Assembly (NCBI GenBank): GCA_014773175.1
Contig: VXCM01002510.1
Coordinates: 1-64,000 of the forward strand
Length of the DNA stretch: 64,000 bases
Direction of reading: 5' to 3'
Source of the DNA: Lucifuga dentata
Lineage: Eukaryota > Chordata > Actinopteri > Ophidiiformes > Bythitidae
A program made the position numbers and the translations under genes. Below are positions 12,922 through 52,500 of this stretch, piece by piece. The notes beneath the pieces are model-generated. The model was not told the origin of the DNA. It searched no databases and saw only the letters and a program-made list of their open reading frames with translations. Position 1 is the first letter of the stretch; every line of letters starts with the position of its first letter.

Positions 12922-12987
<66 letters not shown>

Positions 12988-13826
12988 CGGTGTAGTACTT
13001 GCAAACATTCAGTTCAAAATAAAAGGCCGTTGTGTGGATGCTGCAGGGGCAGAAAGAGCCCCACTGTGGATTTAGACAAAACACAGTGTCCAACAGGAAG
13101 AAGACATTTTTGAGGAGTGATGGGGAACAAAACATGGTTCAATGTGGCTATTATTCCACAGCACAGTGTGTCTGTTCTCCGCTTGTAATATAATTACACC
13201 TGCATCCATTCACTGTTGTGCTGTCCTGTGCATTCCTATAGCCATTTGGAAACATCCTAAACCTGGTCCCTCTGGCTGAGAGCGTCGTGAAGCTAAATGC
13301 CGTCTGTATGCAGTGTTACAAAGAGGCTGCATACACTAAGAGGCTGGGAGCAGAGAAGGAGGTGAGCAGGGAAAGAAGTCCAGTCAAGAAGCATTTTCAA
13401 TAAGTTTGTCCCAAAATGCTTTAAATTAAGAGCATACAGATTTCAATAAAACTCTGCAGTCCTTCATTTTCACCTCAGCCGTTTAATGAACAATTTTGTG
13501 AACTTAAAAAGATAAATATAAAGATGGTTTTATGGTCTAAATATGAACCAATCTGAAATACACACCCAGTTAACATGCTGAAACAACATAATACAAAATA
13601 TCAATTGTCAAACATTTCTCTTTATGAATGTCTCTTATCCATATAGGTGGAAGTGATTGGTGGAGCTGACAAGTATCAGGCAGTATGCAGAAAGTGTTAT
13701 GGAGGTCTGGTGACGGATAAAGAAAACAGCGCCCCCTTCAGGGATGAAATGCCACAACATGCGCTCACAAGCAAACAAGTGGACTCTGGGTTTCCCAGGA
13801 AACTCTTCTCTTCCCTCCACCTCTGA
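9941..13826 (+). CDS. tk1: Thymidine kinase 1, cytosolic, 7 exons
   Basis: Phosphorylates thymidine to dTMP with ATP in the salvage pathway. Exons: 9941-10006, 10173-10204, 11014-11127, 12184-12277, 12834-12923, 13242-13361, 13647-13826; phases agree and give 231 residues (human 234). The P-loop GPMFSGKS is at 26-33, the catalytic DEGQ at 98-101, and structural-zinc cysteine pairs lie at 154/157 and 186/189. A KEN box at 197-199 in the C-terminal tail matches the APC/C-Cdh1 degron of TK1 proteins. The start is the first in-frame ATG and the N-terminus ([11 protein letters not shown]) resembles the family. Exons 6 and 7 are copied in tandem immediately downstream. Confidence 0.97.
11235..11690 (-). 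mobile_element. Decayed LINE 3' end in tk1 intron 3
   Basis: On the minus strand a stretch near 11575-11490 recalls the C-terminus of LINE proteins ([27 protein letters not shown], with frameshifts). It is followed by GGGACAATAAAGTCTAGTC and then TATTC repeats at 11257-11281, the usual end of several fish LINE families. It is 5'-truncated and broken. Confidence 0.55.
12924..12983 (+). repeat. (GT)n microsatellite at the tk1 exon 5 donor
   Basis: About 30 GT units begin directly at the splice donor of exon 5 (AAG|GTGTGTGT), so the donor itself is the first repeat unit. The tract marks the 5' side of the tandemly duplicated segment. Confidence 0.95.
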
Positions 13827-13862
13827 ATGTAAAATATAGAACTTAAATAGTGAGATTCAGAG

Positions 13863-13903
<41 letters not shown>

Positions 13904-13905
13904 TC

Positions 13906-14816
13906 AATCGGTGTAGTACTTGCAAACATTCAGTTCAAAATAAAAGGCCGTTGTGTGGATGCTGCAGGGGCAGAAAGAGCCCCACTGTGGATTTAGACAA
14001 AACACAGTGTCCAACAGGAAGAAGACATTTTTGAGGAGTGATGGGGAACAAAACATGGTTCAATGTGGCTATTATTCCACAGCACAGTGTGTCTGTTCTC
14101 CGCTTGTAATATAATTACACCTGCATCCATTCACTGTTGTGCTGTCCTGTGCATTCCTATAGCCATTTGGAAACATCCTAAACCTGGTCCCTCTGGCTGA
14201 GAGCGTCGTGAAGCTAAATGCCGTCTGTATGCAGTGTTACAAAGAGGCTGCATACACTAAGAGGCTGGGAGCAGAGAAGGAGGTGAGCAGGGAAAGAAGT
14301 CCAGTCAAGAAGCATTTTCAATAAGTTTGTCCCAAAATGCTTTAAATTAAGAGCATACAGATTTCAATAAAACTCTGCAGTCCTTCATTTTCACCTCAGC
14401 CGTTTAATGAACAATTTTGTGAACTTAAAAAGATAAATATAAAGATGGTTTTATGGTCTAAATATGAACCAATCTGAAATACACACCCAGTTAACATGCT
14501 GAAACAACATAATACAAAATATCAATTGTCAAACATTTCTCTTTATGAATGTCTCTTATCCATATAGGTGGAAGTGATTGGTGGAGCTGACAAGTATCAG
14601 GCAGTATGCAGAAAGTGTTATGGAGGTCTGGTGACGGATAAAGAAAACAGCGCCCCCTTCAGGGATGAAATGCCACAACATGCGCTCACAAGCAAACAAG
14701 TGGACTCTGGGTTTCCCAGGAAACTCTTCTCTTCCCTCCACCTCTGAATGTAAAATATAGAACTTAAATAGTGAGATTCAGAGGGGTGTGTGTGTGTGTG
14801 TGTGTGTGTGTGTCTC
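13906..14816 (+). pseudogene. Tandem copy of tk1 exons 6 and 7
   Basis: Sequence from 12985 recurs from 13906 at a constant offset of 921 bp, through intron 5 remnant, exon 6 (copy 14163-14282), intron 6 and exon 7 with its stop (copy 14568-14747). The exon copies look identical. The (GT)n tract after exon 7 has 38 bp in copy one (13865-13902) and 28 bp in copy two (14786-14813). Exon 5 could splice in phase to either exon 6, giving the same protein, so the second set is redundant. It may be a recent duplication, or two alleles placed in series by the assembler. Confidence 0.85.
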
Positions 14817-18276: not shown

Positions 18277-18833
18277 TCAGTAGTTAGGGGGCTGGTAGCC
18301 CACGTCTTCTTGTGGCTGGAGGCTTGAGGTGAAGGGAGTCTGCTGCTGCACATCTGGCCCACTGCTGGGATACACTGAATATGTGGTGGGGGTGTAGGTA
18401 GTGGGGTTGTAAGAAGTGGGGGCNGGGGGGTAGGGGTGATCCAGTGGCGGCTCTGTGTAGGTTGGGACGGCAATGTCACTAACTCCACGACGGTAACGAC
18501 CCAGGGCAAAGTAGGTTAGAATCCCCTGCATGTTAAGAAAGACAAGTCATCACAGTTACTGAATGGGCTGTAAATGATTTACTACCTTTCCTGTACACTG
18601 CATTATGGCTGTTTTCCAACAGCTTTTTGGACTGATCAATGCTTAATTATAGTCATACTGTATTTGGAGAAAATATCTCATCACAATTTTTCTGAACAGT
18701 ATTGCTAAAATATTGATAAAAGTTTGTGGTTTTGCTTCACAATGTCCTTGATACTATACTTATAGTGTCTGACTTACACAAGACTAACACAATACCTGAT
18801 ATTAGAGATACAAGTTTTTCTGAACTAATATTG

Positions 18834-18864
<31 letters not shown>

Positions 18865-21800
18865 AATTTGTCCTCTTATAATTTAACACTAAATAATACA
18901 GGCAATAATAAAATTGCAGCTTTTATTATTTGAAAATTGCACTTTTGAAATCATGATGTCAGTATAACAATGATTAAATTGTCCATTTCTGGTCGAATCT
19001 CCAACATATGAGATTTGAGTGGTTCGGTTGTGGTGTGAGCATAATCTCGACTTATTCTGAGCCATCTATTCACTGAACCAAACAATGTACGTCCATATAT
19101 AGTAGTAGTTGTATTAATGATGCAGATTTATGTCATAGACACAAAGTAGCTGTATTATCAGAAATTAAATTGTAAAAGTTGACACTGCTGTGACTTACTA
19201 TAAGAGAAGGAGAGTCTGTGTGAGGTCAACTTTTATTACTTTCTTATATAAAATGTTTGCTGGTCAGCAACAGACTAATGTGTCAAATGTCAGAGCTTTC
19301 CACCAGCACATGAACGCATCGACATGGAGAAGCTCTCCAAACAGTCTGACTTCAACTGCGTTACCATTCAACAATAACTCTTTGACAGAAACAGTGAAAA
19401 ACAGATACATTTTTTAAAAGATTTAAAAAATTTTATTTAGAATGTTTGCCTGGCTTAGGGGAAGATGAGCTTTTTACTCAAACCACAGCTAAAATCCACG
19501 CTGTTTTTAGTGTAAAGGAGACAGTAACAGTCCTGCTCACCCAGGTGGCGATTGAGAAGAATGAGAAGGCGATGGTGGCCTGCGCGGCATCCTGAGGAAT
19601 ACTGCTGGCATTGTGTGTGCGACCCCACAGAGAGGCCAACAGGCAGAAACACACAAACCACAGGAAGGTCCACACCCCTGGAAAACACAGAGACAGGTGC
19701 ACAAACACACATAGATAATTGTTTTGATGACTGGATCAAGGAATCATAAAAGTGGGCTGAAAACATTCATATGAAAAGTGAGCTTGTGTTTTTGAGAAAA
19801 ACAGACTAAAGAATAAAAGTAGCAAGAGCAAAAATCACTGTTATCTGCTGAAATGCTATTTCCCAAAACACTTCTTTGTTTCCATGAACAATGGCTGACT
19901 GTGAACTGTGTCAAGCCTTGGCGGTCACATTTTAGTTCTTTCTCACCTGAAAATACCAGATCTGCAAGCACAGCATACTTCCTTTCCTGCACGTTACTCA
20001 TGAAAGGCAAATAAACATCCAGCACAAGGAAGCCCACACAGGCCAGGAAGGCGATCACCCCGATCCCTACAGCATAGTGACACGCCGAGTCCGTCTCGTT
20101 GAAGACACACTTCGCCTCAGGACTGTGGATGGGGTTAATGTAGCCCTCTGTAGTGATGCAGGCAAACACCACCAAGGCAAAAAGCTAAAGCCACACAGAG
20201 AGAGAAAGAAGGTGATGGATGAAGAAGTAAACAGATGAAGAACAAAGGGTTTTCTATTCTTTCATGTAATCAGTGACTTACGGGATCATACTGGTGCTTT
20301 CAGTCACCTGAAACTTGAAAGCTTGAGATATAAAATCCATCTGCTTTTGTTGTCAAAGGTACATTTTCATCATATGGTAATACAGTAGAGAGCTGGAACC
20401 ATTTTTGAAAATTCTTTCTTGGTAATGCCTGCTGATACTGGATATTTGAGTCTGCTGCCAAACAACATTACATACATGAGGATGTTGTCATAAAATCTAA
20501 TAAGGAAACAAATATGGATGTCACAAGTAGAACCCTGCACAGGCCCCAATTTTAGACCCATACCCAGCCCTACACAGGTCCAAACCCGACTCTAAGCCCT
20601 AGCCTTAATGAAATTCTTGGCCCCAGCCCAGCCTGACCCAAGGCCTGCAGTCTTTTTTTTTTTTTTTTTTTTNTTTTTTTTTTTTTTTTTTTCTTAAAGA
20701 GGTCATCAGAACAGGAAGTTCAGCTCTTTTCAAAGTAAAGGTAGCGGCTGTCAGCTGCTTTTGCAACATTCAGAAAACAGCAATGGCTGCAGTTTCTGAG
20801 CACCAACATGTGAGTGCAGCATCAGGAGTTGTGTTATGACTATGAGTGGATAGAGGAGGAGGGAAAAAAAGCCCGAAGCCCGGCCCGATTTGTAAATCGC
20901 CTCAGGGCCCGACGGGTCCCAAGGCCCTTGCAGGGATCATTTTTTTATGTCACAAGACATGGGGGAAAAAAAGAATTTATTGTTCTTGCATTAAATACAG
21001 TTCAACAACAGATGCGCAAATATCAGATTTCATGCTTTCTTAAACTCCTTCACAAGGAGAAATAATCCAAATCTGAACGTATTGAATGAGTTAGATTACA
21101 CATAAAAGCGAATGACAGCGCTGATATCTGGTGTGGTTACAGGAAAACAACAAGAGCCTCTAACCATGTTAGTTTAATAAACAGATACTTCCTCCAAGGT
21201 GGCTGTTTTTGGTTCCATCCATCCATTACTCAATTAATAGTATTACTATTTTTAATGCAGAAAGCCTGGAAAAACTACATAAAAGACTTAGTGAAATTTG
21301 GAAGAAGTTTAAGACATAGGTTTGAGTAACAAGTGGTCTGGATTTGGTTCTTGGTTTTTGTTGTCATTAAGTTTTGGCTCATAACTTCTGAAACTATTTA
21401 CTTCTGACACTCAAGTAAGTAGTTTTACTATTTTACTTTTTACTATTTTACTTAAAAAATAAATGATTTTTTTTTTTTTTTTTNATTTTTTTTTTTTTTT
21501 TGTTCAAGATGAATCTATCAATACAGGACATTTCCATTTACACTAAGACTTATTAACATTTTGAATCATTTCATAGATTCCTCCCCCATTTAATATTCAC
21601 CTAATTTTAATTAACAACATTTTCAAACAAACCTGGAAAAACTCATTTACTTCTTTTTTTTTGTTTGCTTGTTTTTGTTGTTGTTTTTTTTGTTTTGTTT
21701 TGTTTATTTATATGCCATACCATTTTCCTTACAGTTGGTTGCCAATCACTTAAACACATCAACCCAAACAGTTATAAAAATGAATAAAATAAAAAAAAAA

Positions 21801-27179: not shown

Positions 27180-30100
27180 TCAGGGCCCCTCTACTGGTTC
27201 ATCCTCCAGTGTCTTCTTTAGTTCCTCAATTTGGAGCCAGTCATCCACAGAGGCTTCAGAAACCTGAGGAGAGGCACAGAGATGTGACTTTGACTTCTTG
27301 GTTCTTCACTTAACTGACTGCTGGGTTGATCATTAATTTATTTGGTCTTTGACCTCACCTGATCAAATTCATCAACTCTGGCTGCCTTCACCACATCGGC
27401 GTCATCTGAATACTCTGCTAAATCCTAAGAGAGAGAGAGAAATACAATATAAATGAAGAATTCTTTAAATACATTTGAAGTAACCATCATTTATATACAC
27501 ATCATTTATGTCACCATTATTTACATACCAGCTCATCCTCATAGGCAGCTACCATGGTTTTCATCTCCAGATCCCGTCTGAGAAAGGAGACAGTCATAAA
27601 TCCATAACAAAGGCCTATCTGTGTATATCTGTGTATATCTATTCATGTAGGTTCAATCAAAATCAAAAACTTCATGATTGCGTTGACTGGTAAATGAGAT
27701 TGAGAAGATAAGTCAGCCTTGTCAGCCTTTTGTTGTGTTTGAGATTTTTGCATGAAACCTGCTGAACTGGTTATAGCACAAAAAAAATGAATAGGACCAA
27801 TGTTCTTCTAATAAGTTTCTTTCAAAGGCAAATGGTAAAAGAATTTAAATATTATTTCCAACAAGTCTTTAGTGATGCAAAATAGCAAAGCAGACTGAAT
27901 GTCAAATAGCATCATTCTCTTGATTAGAGGAAATTCATGGTAAATGTTTGCAGCAATTAAAAAAAATACTACTGGTTTCTGATCAAAGATGTCACCATCT
28001 TGATCACAGTCACATTTTGATGGATGTCCTGCCAATAAATAACATTTTAAGAACTCACAGAGACTCTTTTCCATAGTGTCTTCGCCCTGAAAGGAGAGTT
28101 AAAACTGTTATTTCACAAAAGCAATGAAGGAGGGACATACCAGAAAAAAGGAGATGCCAGCATTGCGGATAATTTAAGAACTCACTGAACACCACTCCAA
28201 TCCAACAACAAATAGAGACCACAGAAACCAGGACAGCAAAACATCCAAAGACAGCTGCTACGACTGAGATGGAGAGACGATTTAGCACTGGAGGAAGAAG
28301 AGATGAAACCATGAAGTTTTGATTGGAAGTCAGTGAGATGGAGGACATTTTACTGTAATTCACCCATCAGTATTCCATCAAAAGTACCTTCTTTATCTAA
28401 ATACCGTCTCCGGCTCCTTATCACAGTGGTGTTGTCAAAGCTGTCTGACACTTCACAATGGTATGTCCCAGCGCAGCTTCTCCCAACAGCCAGCAGGAGC
28501 ATAGACTGCTCAGGAGATTGGTCGACCACCCAGTAGAAGCTTCCTTTGCCTTCCAGAAGCGTGTTGTTGAGGAACCACTGGAAGCATGGATGTGTTCCCT
28601 TTGCCACCTTACAGTAGAACCTGAGGCTGATCACAGCAAAGTTCTCTCCAGTGTCATAGTCGTAGTGCAGCGTCACAGGCCCACCAACTGGGACTGTTGG
28701 AGATGTGGAATATGCAGAGAAAGAGACAAACTGGCTGATATTGCAATATGTAGACAGTTTAGCTGATGAGCAAACTTCTATATTCAGGCTGAACACCCTA
28801 TATAACGTTTAAGCATCAGTGTTGCAGCAGACATACAACAGGCACATTTTAAAGAATCCAGTGTAATAAGGAAATTTTGGGCCATCATACTATACCATAA
28901 CTCTTTTACTGTTAAATAGAAAATTAGTTAAACAAAAAAAAAAAAAAANAAAAAAAAAAAAAAAAAAGCTTTTCATGGCAAATGATAAAAATGCTACAAC
29001 AAGCAGCTTGATTTAATTCCATTTTGACTGCCTGTTTCACATTCAACTGAGCAAGTGCTGTAGTTTCTCCAAATCACCCTCATCATTGCTTGAGTCAAAA
29101 ATTATTTCCAAAAACAAGCTACATCTGGTGAAATAGGTATCACAATAGATATCGCAAACAACAACAATAATAATGCGATTTAGTTTTTCCAGGCAATATT
29201 TTTCAGATCTAATCTTTTCATTGCTATTACACAGTGCACAGACCAACTTCTAAGGCCATCCATCGACTGTAAGCGGTGTGGTCTCTGTTGTCAGCCTGAC
29301 ACTGCAGCCATCCCAAGTGTTGTCCCAAAATCACTGGAAGTTTGAATGTGGCGATTCTCTCCTTGACTGTCATGCTGGCAACAAATTCCATCCTGTTGTA
29401 GAGTGAAAAGGTGATTGGTGGGGTCCCTCTTGTGGACTGACAGATGACCATGGCAGAATGGTTTTGGGTGTCCTCCTTAATCACGGTGAAGGAAATATCA
29501 GGATTTGACACCATGTCTGAGGTAATGAAGGTGAGACAAGTGATCAAGATGAATTATGATGTTCATTTTATTTGACTTTACTAAATAAATTTATATCTAT
29601 ATGTAAAATATATCTATCTATATATAACTTGGCATTCAGAGCTTATTCAGTAACCTTTGACTGTGATTTGGACTTCAGAGCTGTTGGAGGTAAAGACTTG
29701 TGTCTCGTTGAATTGGTTGGTAGCGACACACATGTAGGATCCACTGTCCTGAGAAGTGGTTCTAAAAGTGAAGTGGCAGTGTTCATTATTTCAGTAATTT
29801 TCTTTTTAAACATATTGACATACCACCAACAAACTTCTCAGTGATGTGGAACACTTAGGACTAGTCTCTTAGACCAAGTTAAGCATTCATATAAGGTGGA
29901 AATGTAAATTCTGGGGCCAAGGAGTTTGCTAAAGTTAGTGTTACGATGAGACTAAACTGTCCAGCAGTTTTCCTGTAATGTTAGTTGTTCAGATTTTCTA
30001 TTACAATATATATAAAAAGAAGCAGCAATGTAACATGGACAACTGACCTATAGATAAAGAGTTGGTCATGTGCATAATAGCGTAGAGGAGACTGAGAGAC

Positions 30101-31802
30101 AGGCTGGCCGTTCATTAGCCAACTGTAGGAGACGTGAGTCCCAGCTGAAATGTTACAGCGCAGCTCCAGTGTTTTCCCCTCAAAGAACTCCACTGGACCT
30201 GACAGGACAACGATCTCTGCCTTCTTTACTGGGTCTGTGGAAAAAGGCAAAGCAACAGAATGATGACAGCTCTTACTTTGACTAAAGATGTACTCATTCA
30301 TGAAGCTTATTGAGTTTATTTGTAAAACAAATGGTGATATTATCTTTAAGTTTTGATTGTCTTTGTGGAGCCATTTCTCAGCTGGTTGAACAGATCTGAC
30401 TCAATTGTATACATGCATTTTATACTAAAATTATAATATTTTGAATCTAAAGTGAATCTATAGTTTGTGTTGACATGAACTGATGGCCATAAACAGATGG
30501 AACTTGGAAAGTGAACATAAAACTTGGAAATTTAACAGAGATTTAAGACTTTTTAGTGCACTATATATCCAGAACCCAATCAGAATAAGTATGTAGTGTG
30601 GAAACACCATAAGTATTTGTGCCTTCTCATCCATGAATTTATCCCTAAAATATGACTGTGCTGCTCTTTTTGTCACTATCAAATTTGGCAAATCCAAATA
30701 TTTTTGATTCCAGACAAATCTTGTAGCTTATAGCATAGTCATGCTGTAAACTGAATATTACTATTTATAATTTTAGGATAAAAATATTCATAGTCTGACA
30801 TTCTGCAGTTTATATTGGAAACATAGCAATTTTGATGCAGCGATGGGGCACCTTATTAACTGTGCATATCAGCGCAGTCATTAGAATCTGGATGTATTGT
30901 ATGTGATGTGATGTACACTGAAAGTGCTATGACAGTTCCATTCTGTTAATAACCAGATGAAATTTTCTCAAAATACATTAGTTAAATTTCCACATTACTG
31001 ATTTACTATTTTGGGTTACTTTAGTATTCACTGCAGGAAAAAGCTAACAAGAAGCTATGAACAGAATGATTTTCTGTTAATAGAGTCACTCACCAACAAC
31101 CTTAAGGTATTGTGTGGAGCTGACAGTGGGCTGTATCAGAGAGTTGTTCCGCACTTTGGCTACACATTCCAGGTAGCCCTCATCGGACTGTGTGATTATC
31201 ATGGGGAAGACTCCCATCTCGCCATACATGGAAGTGGATTCAGCCAACAACTTGGCCCGATCACCCTCTCTAAATAAAATTTATAGTTACAGGGATGAAA
31301 TTAATGCATAGCAGGTTAGTTGAACTCCAAAATCTTTTTTCTCTCAGAAATTACTACATTTTAGTCCTGGTGTGACTTAATATTACTTAATACCCACTTG
31401 AATAACTGCAGTGAGATAGTTTCATTCTTTGGATATGTCTGCACCCCACATTCGAACTGTACAACCTCATTGACTAAAGCCACGTTAGGCCCATATAGCA
31501 CTGGAAGGCCAAGAGCTGGCACACCTACCAAAAAATAGAATAAAATAAAAATAAAAAAATTCAAATAACACAAACATCCAACAGACAAAATAAATTTCAC
31601 CATCCAAAGATTACTACATGCATAAACAACTGACTTACTGCTCTCCTTGCTACAGTAGCACAATCCTAGCAAGAGGAGAAAGAAATCAAATAAAATCAAA
31701 TTAAGTTTGGAAATGTGCAAAATTTGGGAAAAGTAAGTTAATTGCAACACTGAGCGTTTGTGTTATCTTACCCAGTATGACCATAAACAGGAAAGCAGAC
31801 AT
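27180..31802 (-). CDS. Four-Ig transmembrane protein A at the IL-40 (C17orf99) position
   Basis: Predicted type I membrane protein, 520 residues; function unknown. Exons: 31802-31772, 31665-31639, 31524-31398, 31269-31094, 30234-30048, 29761-29655, 29516-29244, 28693-28388, 28287-28186, 28086-28059, 27577-27529, 27424-27359, 27263-27180, all in phase. The signal peptide (MSAFLFMVILGL) is split over exon 1 and a 27-nt exon 2. Four Ig domains follow at about 20-120, 121-218, 219-309 and 310-411, each with a Cys pair (e.g. LRCNI/YMCVAT, VICQS/LQCQAD). The membrane span is about 418-440. The 75-residue tail is acidic (YEDELDLAEYSDDADVV) without a canonical ITIM or ITAM. Domain 3 has GTPPITFSL and WLQCQADN, resembling IL-40. 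Domain 4 (GTHPCFQWFLNN) looks like Fc-receptor-like/PECAM domains. It is a paralogue of the gene at 32477-37762. Confidence 0.85.
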
Positions 31803-32330
31803 GTTCAAAATTCATCCAAATAATGAAAGAATCCTGACCAGGTGAACATGGAAGGAGACTGTCATGAATGCAACCATGGACATGAATCCAAATGTGCAGT
31901 TTTGATCAGGATACCCTGTTTAATGAAGCCATGAACAGATCTGACGGTTGTACTGGGTGGGTTGTAATGTGGGCACTGTGGGTTTAAGCAACAAGAGACA
32001 CACAGACATACACAGGCACACACACCCACACAAACATGTGCAAAGACCTGATAACGTTACTGCACCTCCCAACCATACAGTATGCTCTCCCTCTCTTTAA
32101 CATTTAGACATAAATTTAACCAACACATTTCATGTTATTTCATATTTTGTTATCCTGATAAGTTTAGGTACCTTCACTCAATGCAAAGTGAAGCTGCCAT
32201 CTAATTCTGTCACTGCAATAATTAATGCCACAAAAACATGTTGAATATGAAACTTTATTTACGTAAAACATGAAAGAATACAGTAATTTTATCCTCTCAG
32301 TGTAGTTTTGCTGTAAAACATAATCCCTTT

Positions 32331-32336
32331 TTTATT
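32331..32336 (-). terminator. Polyadenylation signal of Ig gene B
   Basis: AATAAA on the minus strand about 140 bp after the stop codon at 32477-32479. Confidence 0.45.
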
Positions 32337-32476
32337 TTAAACTAAAAGCTCCCCCCAGTTATAGCTGAGGCTGAAGTAATCATTGCATGGCCAACATAAC
32401 AAACTGGCAGAGAATATAGAAGAGAAAATGGAAGCAGCACGGGGAGATGAGAGATGAGAGATTACATGCTGCAGGA

Positions 32477-35400
32477 TCATACTGTGATCTCTATGGTCTG
32501 AAACAGAAAGAGGAAGAACAGTAATAATGGTTAAGTAATAGATCATTTTGTTTCTTTCAAACTACAAGGAACACCAATTTCCATTTGCTCTGAGCATTAT
32601 TTTAGATTGTTTTTTTTTAGGTTGCCCTATCTCATGAGAAGGGGAAAAGAAGAAGCCTATTCTTTCTATTTTTGGCTGTGTATTAATTCAAAACCCACCT
32701 AAAGACATTTTAAGCATGATCAAGTTATGCCATTGCTGACACTGCAATATAAAATGCCAACGAGACTTAAAAGTCGGTAGCCACACTAGTTGCCCTACGC
32801 ACAATAAAACAAAATTCTTGAGCAATGAAAAATGGAGACAGCTTTGTCAGTCAGTCTTACATCCTTAACCTTACTGGGACGACACAGAAGAAGAATGAGG
32901 AAATAAGATAATAAAGAGATAGTGGTAAAATGTTGTACAAAAAATACTGTTATCTTCAGACTGTTTGCAAACTGTTTGTTATATGTTAACATGCTGTTGC
33001 GTACCATACCTTAATAATGCTTTTGCATGTGACATCGCTGATCACATGATTAGTTCATACAGCGCTAACTAGCTCCTGTGTAATTTTGTAGTTGCTGTAA
33101 ATCCATCTAAATGACAGCAATTGTGCTCTAAAATGTCAGGTAACACAGAAAGGGCCTGTGAGAAAGAATAGAACATTTGTGATTTTCTTGAACTATTGAA
33201 TAATGATAGTAAGGCTCATTTAATGTAATGAAAAATGTTATTCTGATAAGGTTGGAGTGTATGATGGCACTGACACATAAAATATAAAAGTTGTCTATAG
33301 TACCAATGAACGGAAACAGCTCTCCAACTTTGATACTGAACTATGAACAACTAACAGCAAAAATAAATAAGTGTAATCTAAAATCCAAAATCTTGAAATA
33401 AAGACAAAAAAATTAACAAATAAATAAACAATTACCTACACACAACACACAAGCATTATGTTACACTTGCCTTAACTTATACTAGACAATCATTAACATC
33501 CCTACACCCTGCCGCACACAAACACATTTTCCCAATTCATAAAAGGACAGTGTGCTAAGTTTCACTGCCCGACCATATAATTGTGCATATATGCAGTATT
33601 GTGTACAATTTCATAGCCCTTTGTACCTGATTCACGACTGTAATGTTCATCTGCTGGCCCGCTGACTGTGGAGTGGGTGAGGACAGAGCAGCAGGTGCCT
33701 GTGGGCTGGGAGTGGACGATGCACACTATGTCAGACAGGGTTAGTTGAATTATAGAAATTATAAAGACTTCAGAGGTCTAGTAAAATAAATCTTACTTTG
33801 CAGTATCAATGCGGGTGTCAACTGAGAAAGGAGGGAGTACTGATGGGGAAGAGAGGAGGAGGAGAAAGAGAAAGAAGTTATACTTTTTTCCACTAAATGA
33901 GTTTCTCTCACACACACTCACGTACACACATTCACACTCATACCTTGCCTGTGGTCAAACTTTCTGTACACACAGGCCATGAGCATCACCAGCGCCAACA
34001 GCAGGAAGCAGCAGAATGCTATGGCGATAGCTTCTATGGTAGTTAAGAAGACGTCTGGAAGCAAAGGGACAGGTCAATGATGTATCATGCACTACATGAG
34101 TACATGAATCAGTTAAATATACAGTATGTACTTTTTTTACTTGGTGGCGTTGCAGTGGAAGATGTTGGGACGTGCTCGGGGCATGGAGTTAGGAATCCTG
34201 TCTGATCAAGAGTACAAAGTATGATGTGGTAAAGAGTACAAAGACCCAAGTCAAAGAGGAAATGACTGGAATGGCATATGCCTCAAGCTATGATTAGTAT
34301 GGAGAAGGCATGGATATGTATTTATGTGTGCAGTCTTGACTGTCTCACCTGTGACTTGGACCAGGACAGCAGCACTCTCCACCCAGGGGGTGGAGTTATC
34401 GTAGCTGTCCCTTGCTCTGCAACGGTAATACCCAGACTGCTCTGGGCCAAGCTTGTTGAGGATCAGGGTGCGTCTCCGGTCAGCGAGGACGTAGTGATGG
34501 AGGACAGAATGAATATGGGATTCCACATTGGTCTCAGAAGGAATGATAGAGTCATTTAAGACCCAGGTGAAGAAAGGGAATGTTCCTCTGCTGATTTCAC
34601 AGTGCAGCTTCGCATTGGCCACTTTAGAATCAGCTCTGTATAGATATTCCACTTCCACTTTTGCATGGCCTCCAACTGGGACTGACAAACAGGATAGAAA
34701 GAGTAAAAGAGGAACTGAAGTGACACTTCATGATCTCTTTATTGAGCATCAAACACTTTCTAAGGTGTAGTTTCCTCATTGGCAGAGTGCAAGAGTGCAG
34801 CAGCTTTGGTCAACTTGAATTTATTCAGTTTTCATTGTAGAAATTGTATCAAAACATACACATAAACTTCTCAAGCCCTTGCTGGAGAAGCAACCTCTCT
34901 GAGCTTCATCCATTTACTCAGCATGTTCCAAAGACTTGTAGTTTTGCCAGAAATGACTTTTTCTCTTTCTTGAAACTTCAAAGCTCCACCAAAAGTAGTG
35001 TATTTAGCCATATATCATCAAAACAAGTGTTTGATCATATTGATGAATAGATACATGAAGAGATAAGAACTAGATTATGCTGCAAAAGTGGTTTGAGAAG
35101 TTTGTATTGATGTTTTGATACTTGGTCACTATTGGAGTCCATTGCAACTGAACGAAGTCTGGTATACCAAAGCCGCTGTTCTCTGCCAATAAGGAAATTA
35201 CAACGTTTTAGAGCCACATTTCAAGCATACAGGGAATGTGTGTTCGAAACTCAAACATTATATTTTCAGTGCACTTTTAATGAAATGATGGAAAATAAAG
35301 GTATGGGATGACAGAGAGTTACATTCAATTCACGTATCTGCACAGCTCATACCCACTTCCAGAGTCAGAGGCTCACTCATCAAGTCCTGCACCTCATTTT

Positions 35401-37762
35401 TCACCCGGCATCTCACCACACCCATGTCCTGCCCAAGTACCACAGAAACAGGAAACCAGGCAACAAGAGATTCAGTTGCTGTGACAGAGCTCACTTCTTT
35501 GTCATCCAATAGTAGGTAAAAGGTGACTGGACGACTCCCTTTTGATGACCAGCAGGTCACGTTGCCACTGTAATTTGCACCCTCTTTGGAGATGGAGAAA
35601 GAGATTCTTGGTGTTGAAACATTGACTGTGTGGAAGAGCAGAAGGAACAAAGAGGGAGAAAAATGGGGAGAGTGGTGATATTGTACATAATAAAAACCAA
35701 AATCTGCAGTGAAAGGATGTACCTAACCACTATTTAGACCTCTAGATGAAACAGTCACAAAGTCATTGCCTAAGAGTATTTTGAGTAAGTTATTCCTTTC
35801 CTTTAATTAATTTTTAGAATGTATTCAACATTGTGAGTCTAAGCATTCAAAATGTTAAACGTTAAACCTCAGTTAAACATTAGCATTTTTAGTCACCTTT
35901 AGCATTGCAATGTGTGACCTAGTGTGTATGTACTGTATATTCCTTGTTGAACCACATAAATGACTCAAAAAAAAAAAGAAGTGTTTTCCTTGTGTACAGT
36001 AGCCCCTGCCTCCTATTGAGTCTTTTAGTTGATCTCTACCTTTGACTGTCACGTAGACCTCACCACTGCTGGAAAACCTATTGGTGTCCTGCACTCTGGA
36101 CCCAGCCATGCAGGAATAGTTCCCAGCATGCTTCACAGTCACCTTCTCCAAAACTAACTTGTTCCCTTCAAGGTGGAACAAGGGTGAGGTTGAAGATGTT
36201 ACTTTCTTCCTGTTGAAAAACCATGTGTAGGAAAGGTGGGAGCCCTGGGTGACGTCACAGGTCAGGACAAAGTGTGTACCCTCATAAGCAACAGGGGGGA
36301 ATCTTTCAAAGGTCACTCTGGTTCCTGACACAGGAGCTAGAAATGAGGAATGGATAAAGTTTGTAGACGGCAAGTGGGCAAGTTTTGGGTATGTTTAGTA
36401 AATGAACTGGAACATTAAAGCTCTAATGAGATGCACAGACTCTTTTCTTTCTGCATGCCCGGTACTATTGCTCGTAATAATACTGTATAATTTTTCAATA
36501 TGATAAAAATTTGTCCTATCACAATATTGATGATACTGTGGCATGGTGAATTTTCACATCATGAGCAACAAGAAGAAATTATACGCCTAAAAGTAGCACA
36601 GTCAGCACTTAATTAGTTTCCTTTGGTTCAGCTACAAGGCTAACTGGCCAACAGCCAATGATGGAAATTTGTTTCTCCATCTGAAGCAGAAACAGAGATA
36701 AGTGAATGCCAAAGAAGTCATAAGGAGGAGCAGCTGATTGGCTGAAAACAAGCAGGCAAGTGATGCTGCAAAGTGGTAACGTCTTGTTGCAATGTATGAG
36801 CAGTGTTCATACATGGCAACATTCATACTCTTCATACATCAAAACAGCTGCTACACGCATTTCAGTTGAGTTTTTCGCCTCAACCGCAGGCTACTGAAGG
36901 GAAACACTCTACTATGCCTATGTCTTTAAAGTTTTGTATTGTACTTATTGGTACATAATCACAAATACAAAATTGTTCAGTGTTACATTGCTTATATTAT
37001 CTTGAATATAGTTATCACACACATTCCTTATTATCATGACATTATTTTAAGGCTATAGTGCCCACCGCTTGTACTCACTCACTACAAATAGCCTAATGCT
37101 GCTGCTGACTTTTGTGTTTCTTCCTTTCTTTGCTTTGCAATAGTAGGACCCCTCTGACTTCATGGTAACTTTCAACAAGAAAGTTGCAGGTTTGTTTGCT
37201 TGGATATAAGTAGTTCTGTCGATCAACTGATCACTATCCTTCATCAGCAGGTAGTTGATTGGTGGGGAGGACTCAGGTGAAATACACCGGAAAGCCACTT
37301 TAGAGCCGAGGTAAGCCATGTCAGGACCAGTCAACTCTGGGTGAAGAGAGACTGATCCATCTGAAGAAAGAGAAGCAGAACAGGACGCACTGATACAAGT
37401 TGTGAAAATTGACCTAATAAGCTTATTTCTCATTGGTATTTATAACACAGATATGCAACATACAGCCACTACTTTGTAACAGAGCAAACATCTGAAACGT
37501 TCTTCACCAGAAAGCATTGATTTTATCAGCATTTTAAAGCTACAATGATCTCAGTAAACGGAGCTCCGTATCCTAAGCATCACTTCAAGAAACTTACTTA
37601 TCTTGAGGACCAAAATTGCCAGAGCTGAAAAAAATAAAAAATAAAAATGCAGTGCTATAAAAATAGTCAATTAACAGATTTAAAATGCTGCCATTTTTAC
37701 AAAATATTTTTAACTTACTCACCCAAAATTGGCAACAAACTGATTATCTGTTGATTCTTCAT
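32477..37762 (-). CDS. Four-Ig transmembrane protein B at the IL-40 (C17orf99) position
   Basis: Predicted type I membrane protein, 514 residues; function unknown. Exons: 37762-37723, 37624-37598, 37360-37079, 36336-36040, 35625-35353, 34681-34349, 34197-34141, 34054-33944, 33821-33797, 33705-33627, 32497-32477. The signal peptide (MKNQQIISLLPIL) is split, with a 27-nt second exon. Four Ig domains (about 23-116, 117-215, 216-306, 307-417) are each encoded by a single phase-1 exon. Domain 1 has SSPPINYLL and KPATFLLKVTMKS, close to IL-40 domain 1; domain 2 has GSHLSYTWFFN; domain 3 has GSRPVTFYL. A Thr/Pro stalk leads to a span at about 444-466, then a tail with no ITIM that ends IEITV. The last two junctions are the least certain: an acceptor at 33725 instead of 33705 would shift the tail frame. 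Confidence 0.82.
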
Positions 37763-41325: not shown

Positions 41326-44300
41326 GTAATAATTGGTCTATATGATTAATTTCTGCCACCAGCAGACCTTTTTGATGTAAAATGTTGCCACCAGTGTGAC
41401 GGTCCCTATCAGAGGCAACAGAGGGCAGTAGTAGACTCCCACCCAGGACACGGTCTGACTGTGCACCAGATCGAGCACATTGAAAGGGATCAAGAAGCGT
41501 TGTTTGCCTGACAACTGAGCCAGATGGGATGAGGGGTACCTCTCCTGCAATAACCTGTCAGACAAGGAATAACAGTTTGCTTAGGAACTCCATAAAGTCT
41601 GACTTCTTAGCATAGCTTTATTTTTCCTCTTGGTTACTTTGACTGCTATGACCTCCTCTGTAAAAAGATAAAAAGCATTGATTTTTTCCATTCAAAACAA
41701 ATCAATGACTAAGAAAGGAAGCTGTGTTGATTTGAAAAAACAAACCCACTTCCTGGGGTAGTTAAAGAAGAAAGTATTGCAGAAAGTGGCAAGGAAGTTG
41801 AAGACAAAGAGCTTGTACATCTCTCTACCAAATTGGTTCTCCCAACACTGTAAGAGAAAGAGAAGAAAAAAAACATATGCTCATAAATGAAGTCAAGTAG
41901 AGTTTGTTTGTAGTCCAATATCACACACAATGTCTCAAAGGGCTTAGAAACAGTTCCTGACCCAGGCTAAACAAAGAAAGCTTAAAAACTGACAATATGA
42001 AAACATGAAATCACCTGTCAGTCACAAAACAATCAGATCAATCAAAAAATCAGCCTGAAGTACATCTCCAGCGGTTACACAAGAAAGTGTTCAGAAATTT
42101 ACTGAGTCAAAGTAATTTCACAACAATTGCAAACCTACATTCCCATTTTTTCCTGAGTAAAAGTACTGTATGTACTGTAAGTATGGACTCAATCGAAATA
42201 CTTATAGTGAAAGATCTGTCTCAAATTACTGCTGAATTAATGAGTAAACAGGATTTAAAGAAATATAAAATAATATAAATAATATTTATCTGCAAAATAA
42301 CTACTAGCAGTTACTACTAATAGCTTTTCAACAAATGTTGTGGAATTAAAAAATACAAAGTAGTATAAAATGGAGTAAGTAATGTAAATTACAACTGTAC
42401 ATTAGTGCAGTACTCACATAAATGTACTTTGTTACTCTACACAATTTTTACCATTGACTCACTTTCTGCTGGTTTGATCTGAAGAGGAAAAATAAGTAGA
42501 TTCCCAAAGAGGCCAGCTTCAGGAAGATGCTCCTGAAGAAAAAAGACGGATTTAATCCGAGGATCTATTATGTAAGAGAATTGGATCTGGATTGGACCCC
42601 CATTCATTCACGTGAAAGTTGCTCACCAAGCCCACAATGCCAAAAGAGTTTCTTCAGGTTTTGCATTTTTTTTTTCACCAATGTTGCCTACTCAATCATA
42701 GTCTAACTCTCCTTGTTGATTTGACTCGAAGCATCTTAACAAACATATTGCACCAAATGGTCCAAGTTTGAGTGACTTCTGATGTATATTGATGATGATG
42801 ATGATGATGTATGTTACTCTGATGATGTATGTTACTCTCACACATTGCACATTGCAAAATGTGCAATGTGTGAGAGAGATGGTGTGTGTTCACAGGTTTG
42901 CCTTTATTTGTTCTCCCACCTTACCTCACTAAAGTGGCATTGACCTGCATGGTGAGGGAGTAATCTTCAAAGGATGAGATTTTACGGAAGACGTGAGGGA
43001 GGAACAAGTTGACCAGGGTGATGGTGACGGGAGGGAGGTACTGCAACAACAGACTGACCAGCCTATTCTAAAGAACGACAGTGAGGCTATCAGCTATGGA
43101 AATGTGGCTAAATCCAGAGCTAAACAAAATCTAACAGTTATTCAGCACAAAAGTCTTACCGTTTGACCCGCAGACTGGGATTTATTTATGGCAAAGTGGA
43201 TGAGGTAAAAGGCTCCACCCAACAGAGTCAGAACAAGCAAGTTGAGGGTCAACCTCAGCAGGTAGAGACGTACCCGCAGTGCAAGAGTTCTCTGACCCTT
43301 GCGCAGAGAGAAATTCTGCTCTTCCAGGAACAACTGTGGATACGAAGAACGATATAGGAAGCTCTTTATCTGGCATCATCCACATGTTAAATCAGCTTCA
43401 TCACTACATGGCTAAGAATTTTATTTTTTTGGACAATAAACAACAGTGACAGTTAAATCTACGTATTACACAGTAATTCATAAAATATATGATATGAGGG
43501 TTGAGGTGTCTGGTATTAATTTACAGCTGTGCCTGGAAGAGTGATAGCTTGCATGCAGGTACTGTGTATGCTTGTGTGTGCATGTCGGATGTGTGCGTGT
43601 GAACTCACTTTGAGGTCATTTCTAATGAAACTGTGTTTGAGAGTAGCTGCAGCAGGGTCCTGGATGGTGAAGTCCCAGCCACAAAAGATCTTAAAGCTTA
43701 CATTCACACTGTAACGCTTCCCCAACATCCAGGTGTGCTTGTAGCCAACCGTCGTTCTAGAGTAAAATGTAAAAATTTACCCCAGGTGGAATACATACAT
43801 TTTGGAAACAATTGTTTGCTTTATTGTCACAATACAGTAATTTTCTAACTGACCTGTGGACCACCATGACAAGACTGAAGATGAGAATGGTCAGAATTCC
43901 AGTGAGATACAGCAGAGGTGTATTCAAGCAGGGTAAACTCAGGGAGCCACGAGTATAGAACCCAAAGAACACCGGAGAACGCTCCAGGTAGCCCTGAGTA
44001 ATTGAAAGAATAAAGATTATGTAACACACACAAACACTAATACACACATTTGAACTACATGTATTGATTTACATCAATCATCACTAGTCATAGCAGCTAC
44101 ATCTTACATCATTCCTTACCCTCACCACCTAACCTTATCCTAATTTTAATTCTAACCTTAACAATAAAGCCAAGTTTCAACCCTAAACAAGGGGGGTTTA
44201 TGTTATTGGGCAGGACTAATTGTCCCCATAATTAAAGATGAGTCTCAGTGTGATTATGTGAACAGATTTTTGTCCCCACAATTTAATGAATACTAAATAC

Positions 44301-45507
44301 ACAAACACACACATACACACAGTCATACACAGAAGTAAGCAAACTCTTACCGTTCCCAGGAAGAAGTCCAAAACTGAGTCATTGCCTGTAAAGCTCAAAG
44401 GTTCTGGAAAACCACATAAAACAAAACAATTGCATTTTCAGTGTTCTACATGTAGTTTTCTAATTTGTTTACAAAATCTTGTGTTACAGCTGACTTACCG
44501 CTGTTGTTGCCTCGGCCATAAAATGTTGTAGGCCCCAGAATGAAAGCCCATATAACACCACAGTGTAGCAGATTCAAGCAAATCAGATACCTGAGGAAAA
44601 CAAAATAGGCCTTCACGGCTATTCCGAACTTGCCTGTAACACATTGGAGAGAATTAATAGGGACAATAAAGAGCTTGGTTAAATAAATAGTACAATGCTA
44701 CTTATAGGTGTCAATGTAGCCACAAAGGCACACTAGAAGGTATTATTTCTGATGAACCATTCCAGAGACCCAACAGTAGCAGTAGGAAGTTCTTACCAAG
44801 CAGATTTCAATGAGCAGTTTGTAGGCTACAACTCCATATTGAACCAAACTTTCATACATCCCTCTTGGTATCATGAAAACCATAGTAATGCTTTCAAAAT
44901 AGAAACGCTTTCCCATAACACTGCTTTAATTAGCTCTGTGTTATAGCTAAAAGTAGCTTACAACTGATGCTTACACACACAGGGCAGAGTTGGCCTTTCA
45001 GAGTAAAATCTGTGACACTTTGAGCAGCTTTAGCCTTAGATCTAGCTCCAACCTCATTAAAGCTGTGTTTTAGAACTTTAATGGTACTGCTTACATGTTA
45101 CAAAGACAAAGAGGAAGCATCAAAGTTTTGTTCATTGCATTGCTGCCACCTTTGCTGCTCACATTGAAAATTTGCTTGATAGAAACTTCTTATTACTGGC
45201 ATCGAGACTCTGGAATAGCACATCAGAGACAACGCCATTTAGAGTCCCATTGGGGCTTGTGTCCATACAAGTCCAGATCTTTCTTACCTTCAATGGTGTG
45301 GAGAGTGTGCCGCCATGACAACAGACCTGACACAGCCTCTCCCAGCTGTTCCCACACTCTCTTCCTGCTGATGCTCTGGCTCCGCCTCCATGACTCCCAA
45401 TAACCAATATTACGTAATTGCAGCTTCCTCCTGTCCCTAAATCACAGCAAAAAAATTTAATATTTAATTTGTCCTTTCTTAACATGTTATAATATTCACT
45501 ATATTCA

Positions 45508-49500: not shown

Positions 49501-52500
49501 CTTCGTCGCCTCTTGAAACCTCTGGCACTGTTTAGCATTTTGAATTATCTAAATCTGTATGGTGTTTGTGTCATTACTGTACACCAAGCACCATTCATGC
49601 TGAATAGTGTTGATGCTTTGATCATATTGTTGGAGTTTATTTGCCTGCTGCTGGCATTGCTGCAGGCTGTATTTGTTGTATAGGTTGAATTTCAAAAGGA
49701 CAATAAAGTCTTAAAGTTATCTAATTCATGAACTTTTCCTTCACTTTTTGTTTAGTATTGAAGTTAATTTTTTACACTTTACACTTATCTCTGTACTGAA
49801 ATACATAATATCTTCCTTTTCATTCTCTGTCTTTTGTCCCCTTTTCTAAAGTAAACAGCAGTGCTTAACTGAAAATATCAGGGTATTGAAATACAAGTCT
49901 GCTATGTTAAGCTTTGTGTCGTTGCTCCCTCTGTTGGTTTTTCTCAGTGCTCTGGGATAAACCAGTCCAGTCGAAAACTGTCAAAGTGGACAGATTCCCT
50001 TCTTCTTTCTATTCCCATATCTGTTCATATCTGCTCATAACCACCCTTTCTCCTCTTTCAACCATTCGATAAATAAACACCCATTATGTGATGTTAATCT
50101 GTGTTTTCATTTGAGGACCGGGGTGCCTTCATGCTATTGTTTAAATCTGTCATCCTTGCGTCGGTGTGTTCTTATGCTTTGGTTCCTTCTAAAATCTGTT
50201 GTCTAATAAAGTTGTAACCCAGTTTCAGCTCAATTGGAGCAAATATGTTCTGTTGTCCCACACTTTGTTTCCCCAGCATATTTTATTTGGCAGTGGTTCA
50301 TCTCACCTCTGACCTCTATCAGGCTATGTTGAGTGTTCGTTCCACCCCCTCGAAATCCTCCTCTCCCCTGACAGTCTCCGAGGACTGCTTCAACCACACA
50401 CATTAAAAAAAAGACAAAGTCATTGCAAGACCTAAGCAACACTTAACCAAATGGAGAATCACCAGCCACCCCAGCAATGCTGCATTGAGTAAAGCTGGTG
50501 TGTTAGTCTTTGTGTCCTGCACGAGGGAGAGACTGACAGCAGCAGGCACACAAAAAAGAAAAGACACTGAATAACAAATGGATGATAAAGGGAACTGGAA
50601 CATGAGATTGGAAAACAGTGGTAATGAGAAAGGTATGTTTGAGAGAGAATAAAAAGGACAACAGATGAGCACAGCAGATTGTCTTAATACAGCTTGAACA
50701 TTCAGAAGAAGGATTCATGTCTATAAAGAAATGAATGTAATAATGAGAAAATGACATTTTGGAGCCATTCAGTCAGCATGTTGGCTCATATCCAGAGCTG
50801 CACCCTGCTTCATGCATATGCTGCTGATTTCATTGACACTCTGGATAAGAACCAGAAAAGATCCAGAGACCTCCACCCTGAGTCTGCTGTTTGTAAAATA
50901 CATTCGGCTCCGTCCGTTGGTTGGTTGGTTGGCTGGTTGGCTGGTTGGTTGGTTGGTTGGTTGGCTGGCTGGTTGGCTGGTTAGTTGGTTGGTTGGTTGG
51001 TTGGTTGGTTGGTTGGTTGGCTGGCTCAAAAGGTTNGTTGGCTGGTTAGTTGGTTGGTTGGTTGGTTGGTTGGTTGGTTGGTTGGTTGGTTGGCTGGCTC
51101 AAAAGGTTCTGAACTGATTTTGATGAAACTCTGTGGAAGGTTTGGGCATGAAGAATCCATTAAATTTTGGTGCAAATCCAAGGTCAGATCCAGTCTTTTT
51201 TTTATAACCTCTTAACATTAGGAAATACAGCTTTAAAAAAAAAAAAAAAAAANTTTTTTTTTTTTTTTTTTTCTTTTCTAATGATAGACTATCAAAAGAT
51301 GCATTTTGGTCTGGATCTGGATTTTAATTAAAAAAAATATTTTATCTTGTGATAGTAAAGCAATTATTATTGTTTATACTATCATTCAGTATTATGTCAT
51401 GTAGCATCATAATAGTATACAATATACTATTTATTATTATAGCAATTTCTTCGCTTCTTCTGTCAAATCAAGACAAATTTTGTGTTTTAGCCTTGGTGGA
51501 GATATGTGCTCCAATGAGCGCCTTCTAGTTTTTATTAATTTGTCCACATCGCCCATCTCTACACACATTATGACTAAATATAATGATTAAATTAAGCAAA
51601 CACTGTTAGTTCTCATTTACCCAGTACACTTTACACTGGGCACTTAAAAACATGACTGACATGTACCTGTGATTTGTGTGGTGCTTTTATTTAGTAATAT
51701 GAGAGCATATAGGTTTGCTGTAGGATGCCCAAACTTGACAGTGTCCAACATTTTTAGTTTTTGAAGAGTTGGATCATTATTCCTATACAGAGTGAGGTAA
51801 TGTCATGTATGCCTTTTTCGTGATTATGTGCAGTTTGAAGATTTGCTGAGTGGTGAGATTAGACTCATTCAGGCTTAACTATTGAATATCCACAATATAT
51901 GAGTGAGTAGCAGCCCTACTCAGAGGCACATATAGGGAAATACACCATCTTAAACACTGAGAGTTAATGCTTTTTACTTCTTACCATTAACAGTCTTTAA
52001 TAAATGTTCTCACAACCTTGTAATGCTAAGGTATAAGCATACATATTTATCTGTGTGAGTAAATAAGCTATTTTTATAGCCCACTACAATGGCCTAAGAG
52101 CAGTCATTAAACAGAATTTATAGTTGTTTGTTTATTGTGTTTCATTCCTCTCTGCTTTGCTCCATTAAAGCAGTATTAGAATACTGGGAAAGTGGTTTTA
52201 TAGGTCACTAATGAAAATCTGGATTCAATTTCCTTGAATCTTAAATTCTCCACTAGGCTTTTTTTATGAGCTCTGTGGTCATGTTTTTAAACAAAAAGAC
52301 ATGTCTTGTTTTTGATGAACATTTACATGTAGATGTTGCATGTAACTGAGGACAGATTGTTGGATTGAAGTGTGGGTTTGCATCTGGGCTGTTGAGACAA
52401 AATTCACACAAACACAGAGAAACGGCTTCCTCTAAGCCCTGACATGAGCACTCTGTAAATTCTGACAATGCATTACTCTGTCCTAGCTGATAAATAATTC

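Follow-up and report, generated by a model that had tools for sequence, protein, structure and literature searches.

What occupies, in a fish, the place that C17orf99, the gene of the cytokine IL-40, holds in mammals? We addressed this question in a 64,000-nucleotide stretch of Lucifuga dentata DNA (contig VXCM01002510.1, positions 1 to 64,000; hereafter the window), where the original prediction had noticed two adjacent minus-strand genes between syngr2 and tmc8, each with a signal peptide, four immunoglobulin (Ig) domains, and one membrane span. Splice models, Pfam searches, and tblastn of the flanks confirmed this anatomy for the tandem genes A (27180-31802, minus) and B (32477-37762, minus). 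Three papers describe IL-40 as restricted to mammals, adding that it is without close relatives and that no receptor has been identified (PMC12967690; PMC8566875, PMC10923619). Our analysis indicates that A and B are, with fairly good probability, the ray-finned-fish counterparts of mammalian C17orf99/IL-40 by position and descent. Orthology is likely because of the shared position and the link between IL-40 domain 2 and fish domain 3. This core (position, family, and the match of fish domain 3 to IL-40 domain 2) is likely right; the pairing of IL-40 domain 1 and the order of events are less firm. The features of the two genes, with domains abbreviated D and hidden Markov models HMM, are as follows.

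27180..31802, minus: gene A, type I membrane protein, 520 amino acids (aa), 13 exons (splice model, Pfam; ATG at 31802, stop ends at 27180)
31802-31772, 31665-31639, 31524-31398, 31269-31094, 30234-30048, 29761-29655, 29516-29244, 28693-28388, 28287-28186, 28086-28059, 27577-27529, 27424-27359, 27263-27180, minus: exons of gene A
31094..31524, minus: gene A D1, two exons (splice model)
29655..30234, minus: gene A D2, two exons (splice model)
29244..29516, minus: gene A D3 exon, PF17736 type, best counterpart of IL-40 D2 (32.5 bits in the genome search; IL-40 D2 HMM 42.9 bits; hhalign 69.7, top of 23 classes)
28388..28693, minus: gene A D4 exon (splice model and Pfam)
28186..28287, minus: gene A transmembrane exon (19-residue hydropathy 2.72)
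32477..37762, minus: gene B, type I membrane protein, 501 aa, 10 exons (splice model, public protein P0001; ATG at 37762, stop ends at 32477)
37762-37723, 37624-37598, 37360-37079, 36336-36040, 35625-35353, 34681-34349, 34054-33944, 33839-33797, 33705-33627, 32497-32477, minus: exons of gene B
37079..37360, minus: gene B D1 exon, PF17736 type, candidate counterpart of IL-40 D1 (46.5 bits in the genome search; IL-40 D1 HMM 38.1 bits; trees unstable)
36040..36336, minus: gene B D2 exon, Ig_3/I-set type, without IL-40 counterpart (Pfam and IL-40 HMMs)
35353..35625, minus: gene B D3 exon, counterpart of IL-40 D2 (IL-40 D2 HMM 32.6 bits; trees; absent from the exons of the genome search)
34349..34681, minus: gene B D4 exon, without IL-40 counterpart (Pfam and IL-40 HMMs)
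33944..34054, minus: gene B transmembrane exon (19-residue hydropathy 2.96; helix 445-474 in the P0001 model)

Both models have AG/GT at every junction and a single open frame. The signal peptide is spread over two exons (31 and 27 bp in A, 40 and 27 bp in B), every domain-border intron is in phase 1, with additional phase-2 introns within D1 and D2 of A, and both proteins end in a short tail. We found no motif resembling an immunoreceptor tyrosine-based inhibitory motif (ITIM) in the tails of the window's A and B. The Pfam Ig_3 model recognizes four stretches in A and four in B, and PF17736 (Ig_C17orf99; cut-off 26 bits) recognizes two stretches in each protein, with 39.6 bits for A (best at 225-298, domain 3) and 58.8 bits for B (best at 41-111, domain 1). 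The public L. dentata protein LDENG_00047360 (P0001, 523 aa) matches B (96%), including the last two exons, and differs from our model by an additional stretch immediately preceding the span; in its AlphaFold model, beta domains are accompanied by a leader helix and by a helix at 445-474 that is long enough to cross a membrane.

The first line of evidence for kinship with IL-40 is the locus, which is bounded by the following genes.

18286..20181, minus: SYNGR2 exons, flank (tblastn with the SYNGR2 part of camel P0236; MARVEL domain slightly below cut-off)
41368..44634, minus: TMC8 exons, flank (tblastn with two mammalian TMC8 proteins; PF07810)

The TMC8 matches sum to about 232 bits on the minus strand compared with 30 and 63 on the plus strand. 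The fish order is thus TMC8 > B > A > SYNGR2 on one strand. For mammals, gene order was taken from gene-model fusions, not genome maps: models from Tupaia (P0243) and Scotinomys (P0242) give TMC8 > IL-40, and one from Camelus (P0236) gives IL-40 > SYNGR2. TMC8, the IL-40-type gene, and SYNGR2 therefore have identical order and strand in the window and in the mammalian fused models, so that the fish genes do occupy the IL-40 position, as had been claimed; in the human map, too, C17orf99/IL-40 lies between SYNGR2 and TMC8.

A search of the whole genome (598 Mb) with PF17736, in which 20 candidates were scored, returned three exons, D1 of B (46.5 bits), an exon on contig C1370 (43.7 bits), and D3 of A (32.5 bits); this count is a lower bound, as D3 of B was missed. 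The C1370 exon belongs to a gene with six Ig exons that coexists with A and B and that we take to be PECAM1, from those six exons and the membrane start WKKGLIAVV. No separate IL-40 elsewhere, the finding that would have spoken against the proposal, came to light in this one genome searched with PF17736. A fish genome holds perhaps 20,000 or more genes. With three PF17736-type genes found among that number, the chance of one of them landing in the IL-40 interval is of the order of one in ten thousand, a figure that scales up proportionally if such genes number more than three.

The second line of evidence is the domains themselves. The motifs on which a resemblance to the two IL-40 domains had been proposed lie where they were placed, in D1 of B (SSPPINYLL, KPATF, LKVTMKS) and in D3 of the two genes (GTPPITFSL, WLQCQADN; GSRPVTFYL). 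When HMMs built from 22 IL-40 sequences were scored on the eight window domains, IL-40 D1 preferred B D1 (38.1 bits; A D3 18.9, B D3 12.4, others below 5), and IL-40 D2 preferred A D3 (42.9 bits; B D3 32.6, B D1 27.2, A D2 9.2, others below 4). Among the medians of the D2 HMM over the families compared, A D3 came out on top (41.5), with FCRL5 D7 at 35.0; the Lucifuga PECAM1 D5 scored 27.5 with the D1 HMM. In the profile comparison, B D1 likewise led for IL-40 D1 (75.3, ahead of allergin-1 with 55.7 and PECAM1 D5 with 50.6), and A D3 led for IL-40 D2 (69.7, followed by B D1 64.8, FCRL6 D3 62.6, allergin-1 D1 62.1, and B D3 53.7).

In a database search with an IL-40 profile, the 24 matches comprised 18 IL-40 proteins, 2 fish B orthologues (E-values 4.7e-13 and 1.6e-11), 3 avian allergin-1 proteins (2.1e-9 to 9.7e-8), and 1 pig FCRL6 (5.6e-3). 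This search used a strung-together alignment, seeding by shared five-letter words, and 7,995 scored candidates, so that absence from it means little. The best matches outside IL-40 were the fish B orthologues, counting longer proteins only. Against PDB sequences, the IL-40 profile scored FCRL5 at no more than 27.6 bits per domain and PECAM1 at 13 bits. In the profile check suggested at the outset, depth-matched scores do not separate fish D1 from avian allergin-1; raw and profile scores were accordingly dropped as proof of kinship. PF17736 was likewise rejected for that purpose, as FCRL5, allergin-1, and PECAM1 D5 fit it too, and pig FCRL6 also exceeds its cut-off. With FCRL5 and avian allergin-1 also matching this model, similarity alone is no proof of orthology. 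The suggested structure comparison was not informative either: a fold search with the tenrec IL-40 model retrieved many unrelated beta proteins, with PECAM-1, OSCAR, Fc-alpha receptor, and KIR among them, at TM-scores of about 0.2-0.3, fish B retrieved Robo, sidekick, and contactin, and the method was rejected as a discriminator for both models.

Eleven domain trees were computed: one broad (75 rows, default alignment), two focused, and eight from four random resamplings, each run once with PECAM1 D5 and once without. All had fewer than 100 columns per domain, and PECAM1 was represented by few rows. IL-40 D2 joins D3 of A and B together in all 11 best trees, with ultrafast bootstrap values of 90% in the broad tree, 92 and 97% in the focused trees, 97, 99, 94, and 91% in the resamplings, and 92, 80, 89, and 90% without PECAM1 D5. 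IL-40 D1 is less constant, with fish D1 as its partner in four trees, PECAM1 D5 in four, PECAM1 D2 in one, and neither in two; its union with B D1 has bootstrap values of 99 and 98% in the focused trees, and of 57 and 70% in two of the four trees that omit PECAM1. The proposed resemblance of the domains thus holds for D3 and IL-40 D2 and for the places of PF17736, and for D1 it is recovered in only 4 of 11 trees. The two Ig domains of avian allergin-1 are each other's sisters in every tree, and in the focused trees the FCRL5/FCRL6 domains form a group of their own that excludes fish D1 and D3.

Approximately unbiased (AU) tests were run on the second focused tree, with groups partly picked after the trees had been inspected. 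They reject a union of IL-40 D1 with IL-40 D2, as an origin by internal duplication would require (p 0.012), the crossed pairs IL-40 D1/fish D3 (p 0.023) and IL-40 D2/fish D1 (p 0.018), and the pairing of IL-40 with allergin-1 domain by domain (D1-D1 p 0.002, D2-D2 p 0.003); IL-40 D1 with both allergin-1 domains is borderline (p 0.045). On the broad tree, the values for IL-40 D2 are 0.031 with allergin-1 D1, 0.311 with both allergin-1 domains, and 0.085 with FCRL, and those for IL-40 D1 are 0.395 with fish D1 and 0.368 with allergin-1.

The third line of evidence comes from the end of the IL-40 protein. The conserved ending ...PPGxLPxGPxxVLAGSLxSIAAIxSGMLG... or a close variant is present in 18 of 22 aligned sequences, and a 19-residue tail segment has a mean hydropathy of at least 1.6 in 74 of 121 IL-40 rows (fragments and isoforms included) and of 1.2-1.6 in 14 more. 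This tail is missing from the human 265-aa IL-40; human isoform X2 (P0124) has a similar ending (1.42), and the monkey models of Cebus (P0126) and Piliocolobus (P0127) carry it. The AlphaFold model of tenrec IL-40, whose alignment contained three allergin-1 rows, consists of two Ig domains and a C-terminal helix at 216-239, the latter with low confidence (pLDDT, the predicted local distance difference test, about 45-58). The segment could be a span or a glycosylphosphatidylinositol (GPI) signal, and the hydrophobic tail would fit a degenerate or vestigial receptor anchor.

Many IL-40 models part ways straight after VPPG, continuing with QLP/ELP or with ERA/EKA; the latter is as expected of intron read-through, and the divergence fits a phase-1 exon end at this point. 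The Tupaia fusion model contains an insert between the Ig domains that is compatible with phase 1, and the isoform breakpoints suggest that the IL-40 leader is split across two exons, these phases being read from protein models, not genomic DNA. Several camelid and whale IL-40 models (Camelus, Vicugna, and Kogia) cover only about one-third of the query, and one domain may be lost or unmodelled in them.

From the observed anatomy, synteny, domain similarity, D2-D3 grouping, and hydrophobic tail, we infer a course of exon losses, a direction of change, and a function. In the vertebrate ancestor, the interval between TMC8 and SYNGR2 would have housed a receptor gene belonging to the PECAM1/FCRL/allergin-1 superfamily, and teleosts would have retained it as two tandem genes for type I receptors with four Ig domains each. 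The IL-40 (PF17736) type is represented by A D3, B D1, and B D3, and not by D2 and D4. In the mammalian line, the D2 and D4 exons and the cytoplasmic tail would have been lost; the exon loss would leave the frame intact because the domain-border introns are in phase 1. What remained would be a signal peptide followed by two PF17736 domains and, at the C-terminus, a hydrophobic exon, whose absence or displacement in several isoforms, the human 265-aa form included, would free the ectodomain as a "cytokine." Fish A and B may act as cell-surface binding or adhesion receptors, and since no ITIM-like motif is found in their tails in the window, they probably rely on a partner for signalling or work through binding only.

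IL-40 is thus probably the reduced remnant of a membrane receptor that predates it. This part of the original prediction is supported by the position, the D2-D3 link, and the hydrophobic tails in 18 of 22 sequences; the fact that PF17736 is not specific for IL-40 and the unsettled D1 pairing count on the other side. For the wider proposal the chances appear about even: IL-40 would be neither an orphan nor a mammalian invention, it would be the stripped ectodomain of an ancient multi-Ig receptor family that bony fish keep as a tandem pair, and, with most placentals still encoding the membrane anchor, the secreted cytokine of primates would be a late splice form of a receptor. If this is true, IL-40 acts as a soluble or anchored Ig-domain binding protein and not as a classical cytokine, its likely partners are to be sought among ligands of the PECAM1/FCRL superfamily, a membrane form is worth assaying for, and fish offer a model for studying its fuller ancestor.

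Several results weigh against descent of IL-40 and the fish pair from one gene at this locus. IL-40 D1 joins PECAM1 D5, not fish D1, in all four resamplings that include it (93, 78, 82, and 91%); without PECAM1, IL-40 D1 and fish D1 unite in 57, 70, 14, and 1% of bootstraps, and the broad tree places IL-40 D1 beside human PECAM1 D2 (95%, long branch). The AU test keeps IL-40 D1 with PECAM1 D5 (0.217) or FCRL (0.092) and IL-40 D2 with both allergin-1 domains (0.216) or FCRL (0.178). With PF17736, both human FCRL5 (98 bits, four domains) and avian allergin-1 (83 bits) score above A and B, and PECAM1 D5 (43.7 bits) scores above A D3 (32.5 bits). The median scores of allergin-1 with the IL-40 D1 HMM (33.5/28.8) exceed that of fish B D1 (26.6, maximum 38.1), those of allergin-1 D1 (40.7) and FCRL6 D3 (37.3) with the D2 HMM exceed that of fish B D3 (25.3), and in the profile comparison B D1 ties with allergin-1 (median 56.6) once depth is matched at three rows. 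Finally, all IL-40 rows with a species name, among the matches listed, are placental, and the locus comparison sets teleosts against placental mammals.

One alternative, which we judge unlikely, is that A and B belong to the ordinary Fc-receptor-like genes of teleosts and lie between TMC8 and SYNGR2 by chance, IL-40 being a mammalian copy of an allergin-1/PECAM1-type gene that reached this interval independently. PF17736 is common to FCRL5, allergin-1, and PECAM1 D5, avian allergin-1 resembles IL-40 in having two Ig domains and a span and scores highly with the IL-40 HMMs, and the union of IL-40 D1 with PECAM1 D5 in each of the four resampled trees points the same way. Such an arrival, however, requires one domain type to have settled twice, independently and with equal orientation, in the interval between TMC8 and SYNGR2, with only three PF17736 exons (three genes) found in this genome; it also has to contend with the grouping of IL-40 D2 and fish D3 in all 11 trees and with the rejection, on one tree, of the domain-by-domain allergin-1 pairings (p 0.002 for D1-D1, 0.003 for D2-D2).

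A larger ancestral cluster is also conceivable, of which A/B and IL-40 would descend from different members, sharing locus and family without being strict orthologues. The two tandem genes in fish, the identity of only about 30% between A and the B orthologues, and the differing nearest relatives of IL-40 D1 and D2 in some trees would agree with such hidden paralogy; no third member with PF17736, however, was found in the interval or the genome, and we regard this history as quite improbable. That A/B represent the genuine orthologue of FCRL5, the name that B carries in most public annotations, is very improbable indeed: FCRL5 is the best PDB sequence match of both genes, and the two-exon signal peptide and phase-1 domain borders would agree, yet neither fish D1 nor fish D3 falls into the FCRL5/FCRL6 group of the focused trees, the second signal exon has 27 bp versus 21 bp in FCRL1-6 according to PMC2413239, and a conserved ITIM-like tail motif is absent.

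We return to the interpretation of A and B as counterparts of IL-40 and to their distribution. B orthologues are widespread in teleosts: among the best 120 of 141 matches to the B protein, six rows are unnamed, and all named species among those listed are, to our understanding, teleosts. Their usual public name among these matches is "Fc receptor-like protein 5," with "brother of CDO," "putative pregnancy-specific beta-1-glycoprotein 7," and "neogenin" as others; a characiform orthologue from Hoplias (P0244) was found through the IL-40-profile database search. Public models fuse B and then A in Trematomus, Nibea, and Clinocottus (P0006, P0064, and P0073), indicating that the B-A tandem is not confined to L. 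dentata. Gene A is 64% identical to the second part of P0006 and P0073 and about 28-32% identical, over most of its length, to the B orthologues among the matches listed. An ITIM-like match lies within the last 75 residues in 9 of 118 B models, with differing sequences. The C-terminal pattern [ED][IVM][TS][VIL] occurs in 34 of 118 B proteins (EITV in the window's B); a class I PDZ ligand at this end is not supported (10 of 118).

Beyond the interval, TK1 occupies the plus strand between 10182 and about 14.3 kb, and AFMID lies on the minus strand at about 6.2-5.2 kb, both recognized by short motifs only. Further, weaker TMC matches on the plus strand at 57.8 and 61.7 kb are presumably TMC6, judged from their place. 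Within TK1, a tandem duplication (12941-13880 / 13862-14801, offset 921 bp) repeats an exon, and its copies show no difference in any of six 100-base blocks compared between 13000 and 13599; such close agreement suggests either an assembly artefact or a duplication of very recent date. The window also contains a GTTG tetranucleotide array of 182 bp (50916-51097) and 16 Ns, all single (3106, 3478, 5122, 8557, 18424, 20673, 21484, 24468, 25236, 28949, 39856, 40178, 51036, 51253, 52684, and 54593), most of them located where two homopolymer runs or two copies of a short repeat meet, as would be expected of gap-closing joins.

How do A and B compare with the named families? A literature search, in which some papers were represented by their title and the start of their abstract, found no link between fish and IL-40. 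For zebrafish, PMC4016189 describes four FCRL5-like genes (FcRL5L), one pair on chromosome 3 and another on chromosome 7; they probably belong to the same teleost family, and the chromosome 3 pair may be A and B. FCRL5 is the top PDB sequence match of A and of B. Leaders of the Fc receptor family occupy two exons, partly by a 30/21-bp rule, and the family has phase-1 exons (PMC2413239); A and B satisfy the two-exon and phase-1 rules and fail the 21 bp. FCRL5 and FCRL6 thus share with them the superfamily, the two-exon signal peptide given in that source, and PF17736 in some domains, and differ in their separate tree group and in the 21-bp second signal exon (same source), which has 27 bp in A and B.

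FCRL5 and FCRL6 have, in addition, inhibitory tail motifs, and allergin-1, PECAM1, and IL-40 lie on one human chromosome. PECAM1 belongs to the same superfamily, has a D5 of PF17736 type, and joins IL-40 D1 in some trees; it has six Ig domains and lies on a separate contig, compared with four in A and B. Avian allergin-1 (MILR1; P0245-P0247) is a type I receptor with two PF17736 domains, highly similar to both IL-40 domains and scoring as high with IL-40 as the fish domains do; it has only two Ig domains, and its tail carries VIYTEI and TVYS[TK]V in three of three sequences, motifs absent from the window's A and B. IL-40 itself is associated with B cells and with an IgA phenotype. It differs from the fish pair in being one gene for a protein of about 27 kDa with two Ig domains, as opposed to two genes with four Ig domains and a span, and in having no real cytoplasmic tail, the human 265-aa form, described as secreted, being also without the hydrophobic exon. 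In common with A and B, it lies between TMC8 and SYNGR2 on one strand with them and has domains of PF17736 type, domain exons that are in phase 1 as far as isoform breakpoints indicate, and, in 18 of 22 aligned sequences, a C-terminal hydrophobic segment.

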